Positions 1,241-4,490 of a stretch of DNA of 64,000 nt are shown here, piece by piece. This stretch comes from Terriglobia bacterium (GTDB lineage: Bacteria > Acidobacteriota > Terriglobia > Terriglobales > Acidobacteriaceae): positions 124,001 through 188,000 of the forward strand of contig JAVUPY010000017.1 of NCBI GenBank assembly GCA_032252755.1, in the 5' to 3' direction. The notes beneath the pieces were generated by a model. The model was not told the DNA's origin. It did no database searches and saw only the letters and a program-made list of their open reading frames with translations. The position numbers and the translations under genes are program-made. How positions within the stretch are numbered: the stretch's first letter is position 1; each line of letters starts with the position of its first letter.

Positions 1241-1344
1241 AACCTCAGACGGCGTGATACGCCCTCCCCCGGCTCATTCTCTGGAATCAACGACAGTTAC
1301 GTGGTGAATACTCGTCGCGAATTCGATAGCATTGTTTCCGCGCG

Positions 1345-2112
1345 ATGCTGACCAAAAGTCAATCACGTTCTACCGGCAAAGAACGCGATGGTGAGACCGG
1401 GCTGGATTATTTCGGAGCAAGGTATTACTGGTCAAACATGGGCAGGTGGATGTCACCTGATTGGAGCGTTGAGCCAAAGGCCGTGCCGTATTCTGACCTC
1501 GCCGATCCACAGACACTTAATCTATATGGGTACGTGCGAAATAATCCGCTTGGCCATCCTGACGTTAATGGGCACTGCCCCCAATGTATCGTCGTGCTGG
1601 GGTGGGCTGTCGGAGTCGAACTTGGCCTATGGACTGGTGGCAGCATTTACTTTCACCTGCAGAAAGCGACTGCTGATGCAAAATATCAAGAGGAGACGGG
1701 AAGGCTTTACATAGACGCAAACAGGTTTCCGAATAGTCCTGGCTATTCACAACTCGATATCAATTCGCTCGCCCGCCAGACTACACTGAGTCAAGTCCAG
1801 ACCTTTAAAGATGCGATTCAGGTCGGCCAAGACATCAATTCGATCGCTGGCAAAGGAAACCTGACGAGGGGCTCAGGAACCGCCACGGAAAAAGCAATCG
1901 GGGTGGGCCTGAGTACAGGGACTAAGACGGTTAGCGATTTTGTGAAGGATACAACTCCGACGACGCAGAATAAACAGCAAGACACTCAACGGACAGGCCA
2001 GCAGCTAAATCAACCGAAACCGACGCAGCCACCTCAGACTCCACCGCCGGTACCACAATCGGCTACGCCGAAACCACCACCACCCGTGTGCATTTCGAAG
2101 ACGATGTGTTGA
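1345..2112 (+). CDS. Orphan RHS repeat-associated core C-terminal tip (tip A)
   Basis: This is the C-terminal end of an RHS/YD-repeat protein without its body. The RHS-core signature is at residues 11-75: TGKERDGETGLDYFGARYY, then GRWMSPDW, DPQTLNLYGYVRNNPL and a DVNGHC end. Full RHS proteins have more than 1000 residues before this point; here there are about ten. After the core comes a variable tip of about 180 residues with a hydrophobic stretch (residues 75-95), a polar region and a Pro/Gln-rich tail (residues 205-250). In intact RHS proteins this variable part is usually a toxin, and a cognate immunity gene follows; the gene at 2134 is in that place. I do not recognise the tip fold. It may be an expressed orphan tip, a recombination reservoir or a decayed gene. 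The ATG at 1345 is the only plausible start and no clear ribosome binding site is seen. Confidence 0.75.
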   Translation: MLTKSQSRSTGKERDGETGLDYFGARYYWSNMGRWMSPDWSVEPKAVPYSDLADPQTLNLYGYVRNNPLGHPDVNGHCPQCIVVLGWAVGVELGLWTGGSIYFHLQKATADAKYQEETGRLYIDANRFPNSPGYSQLDINSLARQTTLSQVQTFKDAIQVGQDINSIAGKGNLTRGSGTATEKAIGVGLSTGTKTVSDFVKDTTPTTQNKQQDTQRTGQQLNQPKPTQPPQTPPPVPQSATPKPPPPVCISKTMC

Positions 2113-2133
2113 TGGAGTAACGGAGGTCTCGTA

Positions 2134-2691
2134 ATGTTGACTTTTGGCCGTTCAGGCAATCGATGTCTCGTAATCTTTTCACTATTTATCTGCGTGGTAA
2201 TCTTTTCGCCTTCCATAATTGCTGCGGCATCGCGGATCATCTTTGGCACGGAGGTTTTGTTCCACGGGATGCTTATAGAGATTCCTCGAGGGTGGGTCCT
2301 TGTGCCGAGGGCGTGGCGGAACACCCCCAGTCCCGAGCTGATCAAATTACCAGTCACCCTATTCTCCAAATATCACCTTGGACACATGAGTTTTGCTGCG
2401 GAAAGCGACGCGACAAACTTCACCGATGAGAGCCTCGATAAGTGGAAACACGCAGTTGAATCACTCTATGTTCATCGCGGGTATACAGTTCATGGTCCCG
2501 ATGAAATGAGTGGCGGAGAATCGACCTGTATTGTTGCCCTCGCGTCCGAGACTGAGCCGAATGCAATTGCTTTTTGTTATCTACAGAAGGGCAGGTTCAG
2601 TGCATCTTTCCAAGGTAAGAACGATGATCTCGACCAGTTCTTGAGGAGCATTCGAAATCTCAAGGTAATACAAACGTCGCCGGGAACGTAA
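2134..2691 (+). CDS. Predicted secreted protein after RHS tip A (possible immunity protein)
   Basis: A 185-residue protein I do not recognise. Residues 1-32 have basic residues followed by a long hydrophobic run and small residues (SIIAAAS), a signal peptide or membrane anchor. The rest is soluble and mixed alpha/beta in look, with Cys near residues 133 and 149. An AACGGAGG-like ribosome binding site lies just upstream of the ATG. It starts 21 bases after RHS tip A stops, in the same direction, and is followed at once by a terminator-like hairpin, so tip and gene form a two-gene unit. By analogy with RHS systems it could neutralise the tip in the periplasm. This is inference from position only. 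Confidence 0.6.
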   Translation: MLTFGRSGNRCLVIFSLFICVVIFSPSIIAAASRIIFGTEVLFHGMLIEIPRGWVLVPRAWRNTPSPELIKLPVTLFSKYHLGHMSFAAESDATNFTDESLDKWKHAVESLYVHRGYTVHGPDEMSGGESTCIVALASETEPNAIAFCYLQKGRFSASFQGKNDDLDQFLRSIRNLKVIQTSPGT

Positions 2692-2698
2692 GGAAACA

Positions 2699-2728
2699 GG
2701 CCCGCTGAGCGAATCAGCAGGCCGTTTC
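2699..2728 (+). terminator. Terminator-like hairpin after the tip A unit
   Basis: GGCCCGCTGA and TCAGCAGGCC form a stem with one mismatch around a five-base loop, followed by GTTTC. It begins 8 bases after the stop at 2691. The T-run is short, so termination strength is uncertain. Confidence 0.5.
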
Positions 2729-2848
2729 TCATGCAGCGGGATGCGTCTTGGAAATTCGGGGGAAATTCGGGGACAGACGGAAAATTCCCCAATTTCTGCA
2801 CAACCCATCGCAATCTCACCGTATGACGTTCTTTGCCGGTGAAATGGT

Positions 2849-3385
2849 TCACTCACTGCACGCAGCCACAGTGGCAGAACTAGTAATGCGATACTCCATC
2901 GCATCTAGACTACTTAACTTAAAATTGGGATCACGCAATACGGTTCGAAAATCGAATGAAGGTGTCGGCCCAAGATAGATGCCAACGATGCCCTTAGAAT
3001 AGGTATAGTGGAACAAGTAATTTGGAGCAGCGTCGAAAACCATCCATAAGTTGTTGTGCAGCACCGAAACGAGCTTTGGACGAAACCTGAGGCGCTTGTA
3101 ATCTCCGTACGCCGCATCCTTGCACTGTCGAAAGTAGGCGAACGCAAATCCATGGTGGTCCGTCAGACACACTTCGAATTTGTCACTGCAATCCTGCAGT
3201 CCCGTACTTCGTGAGCGCGGTGTATCAAGAGTTCCAGTCCGCGTATCCAGGTTTATGGTGGCTCCATTCGATGCAGTAAATGTAGCCAGGAAACCGGCGT
3301 GCTCCGATGATCCCGACTGTGCCGTCGCTGCCGAAAGCAGCGTCACGAGCACAAAGAATATTCGTATACTACACTTCATTGGCAA
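2849..3385 (-). CDS. Predicted secreted protein coupled to RHS tip B (possible immunity protein)
   Basis: A 178-residue protein I do not recognise. The N-terminus (MKCSIRIFFVLVTLLSAATA) is a clear signal peptide; a second ATG at 3379 gives the same peptide without two residues. The mature part contains Cys pairs near residues 65-72 and 87, aromatic-rich segments and a final VAACSE. The start overlaps the end of RHS tip B (stop at 3376) by 10 bases, the translational coupling often seen for polymorphic toxin and immunity pairs. It is unrelated by eye to the gene at 2134, as expected if each protects against a different tip. A periplasmic protective role is inference. Its stop faces the tip A unit, so the two units are convergent. 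Confidence 0.6.
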   Translation of the reverse strand: MPMKCSIRIFFVLVTLLSAATAQSGSSEHAGFLATFTASNGATINLDTRTGTLDTPRSRSTGLQDCSDKFEVCLTDHHGFAFAYFRQCKDAAYGDYKRLRFRPKLVSVLHNNLWMVFDAAPNYLFHYTYSKGIVGIYLGPTPSFDFRTVLRDPNFKLSSLDAMEYRITSSATVAACSE

Positions 3386-4122
3386 CCCCCTGGTATATCG
3401 CAGTCGAACGGAGCACCGACAGCTTCTGACATGCGCTTGCCGGCCGAGCTCGTGCCTTGTTCACGCGGCCACGAAATCATAGGCGTAACCGGATATTGTT
3501 GCGTCAACGCCTCTCCAAAGTGGGTTTCATGACCTAGCTCATGAAACGTCAAAGTAGTGAGCCCCACGAGCGGAGCCTCATTGCGGGCAGACGCGGCGTT
3601 AGCGTAGTCCGACACCGCCTGAGGATTTAGCTCGCTATGACCGGAGAATGAATCTCCTTTCCAGGTGCCACCTGTTCCGCCGCCAGCGCCGCCGTTATTG
3701 AAACCCTTGTTCGTCACGTCAAAATGTGTCCCGTTCCAAACAGCCTTGATCTCCTTCCCCGTCATTGACCCAATGACCTTACCCTTCGAGTCTTTGATAT
3801 CAAATTTGTCCTTGTCATTTAGAGCATTCACGGCCTTGTCATACTTGTTCAATACCCCTTCCAGTTGCTTGCCAGCTTTTGTGCCTGCCGACCCCGTGTT
3901 CGGGTCCACATTTACCTTACAAGTCCCATCCTTGTAGTGATCGGCGCAGTGCCCATCCAGGTCGGCACGACTCAGAGGATTGTTCCTTACGTATGAGTAC
4001 AGGTTCAACGTCTGTGGGTCACCGAACAATGCGTAGGGCACAGTCGTAGGTTTAGCAGCCCAATCGGGCGTCATGAACCTGCCCATATTCGAAGCGTTGT
4101 ATCTAGCTCCGAAGTAGTCCAA
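3376..4122 (-). CDS. Orphan RHS tip with zincin-like HELGH motif (tip B)
   Basis: A second RHS C-terminal tip without the RHS body. Core motifs are LDYFGARYNASNMGRFMTPD, DPQTLNLYSYVRNNPL and ADLDGHC in residues 1-60. The variable part (residues 60-248) has a Gly-rich patch GGAGGGTGG and then TLTFHELGHETHF near residue 193; HELGH fits the HExxH zinc-protease motif, so a metallopeptidase-type toxin is a reasonable guess. The frame begins at a TTG (4122) inside the conserved core. Compared with tip A, one extra C near 4151 shifts the upstream bases matching tip A's MLTKSQSRST into another frame, and the open frame runs back to about 4220 without an ATG. It may therefore be non-expressed. Coupled downstream gene: 2849-3385. 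Confidence 0.65.
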   Translation of the reverse strand: MDYFGARYNASNMGRFMTPDWAAKPTTVPYALFGDPQTLNLYSYVRNNPLSRADLDGHCADHYKDGTCKVNVDPNTGSAGTKAGKQLEGVLNKYDKAVNALNDKDKFDIKDSKGKVIGSMTGKEIKAVWNGTHFDVTNKGFNNGGAGGGTGGTWKGDSFSGHSELNPQAVSDYANAASARNEAPLVGLTTLTFHELGHETHFGEALTQQYPVTPMISWPREQGTSSAGKRMSEAVGAPFDCDIPGGCQ

Positions 4123-4326
4123 CCCGGTTTCGGAATCGCGTTCTTTGCCGGGTAGAACGTGATTGGGTTGACGTAAGCATGGGAAACGAAATCGTGCCCA
4201 ATAAGGCTTACAGGGTCACAGATTTCTTTTCTTCCCGTTTTGGAACTGCCCGAAAATTTTCCTCATCCCCAACCACCAGCCCTCTTGACCACCCGAGTTA
4301 CAATGGTTCTGGACACAGTCTTTCCA

Positions 4327-4425: not shown

Positions 4426-4490
4426 TATCAGGGCACAGCTTCAGCCATGCCGTCTCGTATTCGTATCAGGGCACGGCTTCAGCCGTGCCG
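4426..4490. repeat. Pair of REP-like palindromic units
   Basis: Two 27-base units (4426-4452 and 4464-4490) differ at two positions. Unit 2 holds a perfect hairpin, GGCACGGC-TTCA-GCCGTGCC; in unit 1 two base pairs of the stem are lost. They are spaced 38 bases apart in the same orientation. Confidence 0.6.

Follow-up and report, generated by a model that had tools for sequence, protein, structure and literature searches.

The locus considered here raises the question of what two RHS C-terminal ends, each followed by its own partner gene, are for at a site where no full RHS gene is found. The window, i.e. the whole stretch of 64,000 nucleotides that was analysed, carries two such ends, designated tip A and tip B, which face each other and converge, together with partner A and partner B, on a hairpin between them. 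The explanation that fits best, and which we consider probable, is that the locus holds a pair of orphan RHS C-terminal toxin/immunity cassettes, displaced, acquired horizontally and parked tail-to-tail with no delivery gene, the tips being envelope toxins, the partners their immunity proteins, and protection the main benefit. The features on which the argument draws are as follows.

1319 to 1374, plus strand: 5' leader of tip A, also present in copies on contigs C93, C15, C73 and C27 of the same genome.
1345 to 2112, plus strand: orphan RHS tip A, with its core (TIGR03696) at 1375-1578 and its variable tip at 1579-2109.
2122 to 2126, plus strand: GGAGG ribosome-binding site of partner A, duplex energy -10.7 kcal/mol.
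2134 to 2691, plus strand: partner A, predicted immunity protein of tip A, 185 aa with an N-terminal hydrophobic export or anchor segment.
2699 to 2723, no strand assigned: terminator-like hairpin between the convergent cassettes, a 10-pair stem, weak as evidence since shuffled sequences give nearly as many such sites.
2750 to 2837, minus strand: segment running from the core-start bases GGCAAAGAACG into repeat-like sequence, matching C73:108303-108409 at 91% identity over 91 query bases.
2827 to 2848, minus strand: truncated core start ACCATTTCACCGGCAAAGAACG ('NHFTGKER'), directly 3' of the partner B stop codon.
2849 to 3379, minus strand: partner B (start at ATG 3379), which carries a Sec-type signal peptide and four invariant cysteines and is predicted to confer immunity to tip B.
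3376 to 4149, minus strand: orphan RHS tip B, with its core (TIGR03696) at 4149-3949 and its variable tip at 3948-3379.
4150 to 4195, minus strand: 5' leader of tip B, from sequence and alignment, anti-SD energy -2.4 kcal/mol.

The RHS-associated core domain TIGR03696 matches both frames (E 9e-15 for tip A and 2.7e-14 for tip B), both cores were recovered again by a genome-wide core scan, and the two frames are convergent with their 3' ends inside, as the first-pass annotation had described. Its shared core of about 230 bases is likewise borne out (238 nt aligned at 69% DNA identity), and the tips are indeed unrelated to each other (BLASTP E 3.5), as are the partners (BLASTP E 0.66). The core ends at a D-x-x-G motif, DVNGHC and DLDGHC in the two cassettes, after which the variable tip begins, while the N-terminal delivery part is absent, the open frames beginning about 10-25 codons from GKERD, and no RHS repeats were found at the locus upstream of either frame. 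Homology between the cassettes had been placed as starting at ATGCT; this has to be moved outwards, tip B and other copies within this genome agreeing over about 25-40 nt more upstream (GATACGATTTYGTTTCCCATGCT). Partner A starts 21 nt after the tip A stop codon, the gap that had been reported, and the overlap reported between tip B and partner B is real, its supposed length of 10 bases depending on an upstream TTG; counted from the conserved ATG, the two genes overlap by 4 nt (ATGA), exactly as they do in three other genomes. The GC content of the cassettes is 51-52%, against 60-61% in their flanks. Short GC-rich repeats lie on either side of the cassettes, at 1205-1240 and 4426-4490 (GGTACCGGGTGCCGGGTA; TATCAGGGCAC[AG]GCTTCAGCC[AG]TGCCG). 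Known RNA families were not found at the locus, and no promoter for the partner genes was identified there.

Comparison of the four proteins with Pfam, PADLOC, PHROGs and the PDB gave anything useful for the core only. Beyond the core, neither tip matched a known toxin family (Pfam, NCBIfam and PADLOC, with the PDB for tip B); for tip B, sequence searches gave neither a Pfam family nor a solved structure, and neither partner matched a known immunity family. Structure models of tip B and partner B reached a pLDDT of 36 and 42, respectively, too low for use.

For tip B, three relatives (L091, L092 and L093) were recovered when 84,980 species genomes were scanned, with 70-79% identity in the best segment (tip identity 70-80%), and in all three a partner B homolog that is 58-68% identical stands directly behind the tip. 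In L092 and L093 the pair belongs to long RHS reading frames, with another orphan tip following it in L093. In L091, which comes from a Lysobacteraceae MAG, a tip that is about 80% identical sits on an unrelated RHS core, identity being lost at the core/tip border, and the tip/partner DNA has 49-52% GC within a contig of 67-70% GC. L092 and L093 are labelled Acidobacteria, which is the ground on which the genome of the window was placed as acidobacterium-like. The codon-position differences between tip B and its L091 relative (29/20/101) fall mostly on third positions, and pN/pS against the relatives is 0.17-0.26 for tip B and 0.33-0.39 for partner B, values that are rough because synonymous sites are near saturation, while amino-acid change in the window tip B is not in excess of that among the relatives themselves. 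Judged by these patterns of substitution, tip B is under strong purifying selection. The tip carries a HELGHETH motif (at about 3529-3543) and two Cys pairs; the latter are invariant across the relatives, and HELGH is found in three of the four family members with HELAH in L093, so that H, E and H never vary. The HELGH motif indicates that tip B is probably a disulfide-stabilised, zinc peptidase-like toxin.

For tip A the evidence comes mainly from the partner. A family profile (A1) built on partner A has matches in 30 of 399 genomes of the class, and in six genomes, including that of the window, an RHS tip stands directly upstream of the homolog on the same strand (G000; L049 in G078; L073 in G249; L081 in G082; L088 in G040; L086 in G234). 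That these six adjacencies arose by chance is very unlikely, because cores number only a handful per genome. The tips concerned are alike in architecture more than in sequence, a Cys pair being followed by a hydrophobic segment, then by a helical-looking stretch and finally by a tail that is Pro-rich or charged. In tip A the tail is Pro-rich, and a second Cys pair closes the tip in G000 (the genome of the window), G078 and G082. In G234 the tip has no Cys pair and the partner match is weak (E 3e-5). Every tip of this type contains a hydrophobic segment (best 19-residue Kyte-Doolittle mean 1.4-2.0), and sequence resemblance between tip A and its putative relatives is weak (E 0.17), that to tips on long RHS proteins being at family level only. 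Tip A itself is probably helical and membrane-active. The majority of partner A homologs have no tip beside them, some lying next to housekeeping genes and those of one family in an ordinary gene neighbourhood; the protein family is thus wider than immunity. No viral relative of partner A was confirmed. Adjoining the tip A/partner A relative in G078, a further locus (L053, G078:C160, 2627-3637) holds a tip that looks like an M15-type peptidase by eye and a lipoprotein-like partner.

Since the same tip-partner pairs recur together in distant bacteria, they are likely to be real toxin-antidote cassettes, and on this sequence comparison the pairs are genuine tip/partner cassettes; the proposal that they move as units holds for tip B/partner B in L091-L093 and for the homologs of partner A, which six genomes have directly behind an RHS tip. 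Toxicity, targets, neutralisation and benefit are what we infer from their design. Each tip would be the active end of a toxin exported as an RHS protein and, if attached to a complete protein of this kind, would reach a neighbouring cell, where tip B may act as a zinc peptidase through its invariant HExxH and tip A may insert into the membrane. The exported partners would serve as immunity proteins outside the cytoplasm. Action and protection in that compartment are suggested because the tips are bracketed by Cys pairs, the partners are exported and the cysteines of partner B are conserved; the view that secreted partners fit extracytoplasmic protection thereby gains from their signal sequence or transmembrane segment. 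Here, the tips are probably silent because the delivery part is absent and a translation start is hardly present. The partners, on the other hand, would be well translated and exported, their ribosome-binding sites lying at about the 1st percentile of the window background for partner A and among about the strongest 1% for partner B (-10.6 kcal/mol). With partners translated and tips hardly so, the main benefit would therefore probably be to protect the cell from neighbours whose full RHS genes bear these same tips.

The remainder of the genome (5.39 Mb in 96 contigs, estimated completeness 99.98%) provides the context in which other explanations have to be weighed. Its assembly contains six core matches, namely tip A, tip B, an intact orphan on C93, a broken copy on C15 and longer frames on C79 and C25, and none of the six is a long RHS gene with the window core. 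The longer frames have an unrelated core, which BLASTN of the window's core did not match. More pieces of the leader and core start were found on C73 and C15 and at the extreme ends of C27 and C29; since these two contigs end inside the leader/core repeat, the repeat breaks the assembly, and further copies may be missing from it. The third intact orphan, with the same leader and core (C93:133486-134325, plus strand, within L121, C93:122000-136668), encodes 279 aa from its ATG and has a different tip, which only by eye resembles a nuclease; the small frame behind it lacks a signal peptide. In the same region (C93:136582-136114, minus strand) a leader runs directly into a tip-like frame that has no RHS core, and a broken tyrosine recombinase gene (about C93:135704-134773, minus strand) lies near this copy. 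That recombinase was considered as the mover and rejected, the gene being broken and the 17-nt match beside it weak (E 0.13). A mobile element with terminal inverted repeats was also rejected: opposed copies occur on C93 and C15 as well, and a shared inverted element is unsupported because ordinary genes lie between the two C15 copies, which are themselves broken.

Among the alternatives, the one that survives best, and which we still regard as unlikely, is that the cassettes are decaying, functionless leftovers of a lost RHS locus. Broken copies do exist elsewhere in the genome (C15:53063, C15:48851 and a leader stub on C73), the leader ATG of tip B (4180) is offset by one base relative to the core, and behind partner B the next core is truncated; this core start is 95.7% identical over 23 nt to that of the full gene in L092 and, to judge from this match, is the remnant of a further cassette. 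Against decay, both tips (2/2) and both partners (2/2) are full-length and intact, strong ribosome-binding sites are kept at the partner starts, and tip B lacks surplus amino-acid changes.

It has also been proposed, in the first-pass annotation, that the locus feeds its tips into a full RHS gene elsewhere by recombination across the shared core, which would make it a reservoir of cassettes kept for swapping the tip of such a gene. Evolutionary exchange of tips between cores, as seen between L091 and L092/L093, is consistent with this idea, and recombination of an orphan tip onto the main gene has been discussed for Salmonella (PMC7043789). Moreover, the segment of about 90 nt that stands behind the truncated core start in the window stands behind an orphan leader at C73, being joined at GGCAAAGAACG to two different 5' sequences (C17 and C73), and this junction, read from the change of upstream sequence, is a recombination joint. 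The far part of the segment (window 2750-2837 and C73) has three occurrences in C10 and the look of a REP-type repeat. On the opposite side, the assembly is without a long RHS gene having the window core, identical runs are short (17 nt at most between cores A and B, 8 nt with the RHS frame of C79), and the cassettes at the locus are inverted and not direct. Feeding by recombination is unsupported at present because no same-core gene is assembled and the identical stretches are short, and we consider the reservoir improbable. The absence of a full RHS gene, which the annotation had itself named as counting against its proposal, weighs largely against the feeding idea and not against toxin/immunity cassettes. 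When a full-length relative was used to look for a carrier, nothing came up, an empty result that proves little in such a search. With C27 and C29 ending inside the repeat, a carrier may exist outside the assembled sequence.

Very improbable, finally, is a self-acting toxin-antitoxin module whose tips, translated from the ATG in the leader, would attack the cell that makes them, for which an ATG that lies in frame 10 codons ahead of GKERD in tip A (ATG 1345, reading MLTKSQSRST-GKERD) and in the copies on C93, C15, C73 and the C27 contig end speaks together with the Salmonella orphan Rhs tip precedent (PMC7043789), and against which stand a tip A start devoid of a ribosome-binding site (anti-SD energy +0.1 kcal/mol), a tip B ATG out of frame, and exported partners and paired cysteines that fit a cytoplasmic toxin and antitoxin poorly.

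Displaced cassettes with a protective benefit, as we favour here, can be set beside those of related genomes. The core is present in 202 of 300 genomes of the family, where arrays of a long RHS gene, a partner, an orphan tip and a partner are common, and one full RHS gene starts with a Sec-type signal peptide, as read by eye. Tyr-Asp shortly before FTGKERD occurs in 10 of 18 orphans versus 2 of 26 long genes, the orphans with this leader coming from several genera (L008, L009, L011, L016, L031, L032, L055 and L056); as a leader common to all orphans it was rejected, a second orphan set having it in 1 of 8. A speculative idea, to which we give a small chance of being right, is that the short orphan genes of the family, sharing a standard 5' leader (xYD...FTGKERD, provided at this locus with an ATG of its own), form their own lineage, spreading and exchanging tips independently of full RHS genes, and that carrier-less genomes would thereby hold a self-sustaining immunity repertoire against envelope-acting toxins. 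Another candidate for an envelope-acting toxin is an orphan tip in L057 (G015:C14, 6658-8234), in which a motif like that of L,D-transpeptidases can be seen by eye and whose partner has a signal peptide.

Orphan modules displaced from their usual place, and thus not behind a full rhs gene, are already known as well. A literature search found no paper on orphan Rhs modules in this bacterial group. The present cassettes resemble the orphan cdiA-CT/cdiI and rhs-CT/rhsI modules (Poole et al. 2011, PMC3150448), in which a tip and an immunity gene are detached from the delivery gene; alike are the arrays behind full genes, the homology border at a conserved motif before the tip, and a toxin fragment without translation signals next to an immunity gene that keeps them. 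In E. coli EC93, where no start signal precedes the orphan toxin, orphan immunity genes are expressed and protective (PMC3150448). Unlike these modules, the window cassettes have no assembled same-core carrier, are convergent and lie apart from any full gene, a position directly behind a full rhs gene being found in the relatives and not in the window; their tips and partners also belong to unnamed families and the partners are exported. In Salmonella Typhimurium, the orphan rhs likewise consists of a short tip gene and a partner apart from the delivery part, with the tip expressed from internal signals and acting inside the producer, whereas the window tip starts are without ribosome-binding sites and the partners are exported (PMC7043789). 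With the Tox-MPTase families (Zhang et al. 2012, PMC3482391) the locus shares RHS-linked HExxH tips and recombination with standalone cassettes, tip B, by its HExxH motif a candidate for one of Tox-MPTase1-5, matching no Pfam family. By analogy, the helical membrane-active tip suggested for tip A recalls Tse5, the pore-forming Rhs effector of Pseudomonas aeruginosa (PMC9637101, PMC10684867), from which it differs in its bracketing Cys pairs and Pro-rich tail.

In conclusion, the locus belongs to the orphan Rhs-CT/RhsI class in everything except the missing upstream carrier, and its tip and partner families are previously unnamed. With it, two toxin/immunity pairs without a name are added, each apparently designed for the cell envelope, and the four-genome tip B series, with two core types and an orphan, shows cleanly how distant bacteria have exchanged a tip in nature. 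As a same-core carrier is not assembled, the locus also provides a test of why orphan cassettes persist, for immunity alone or as reserve ammunition.
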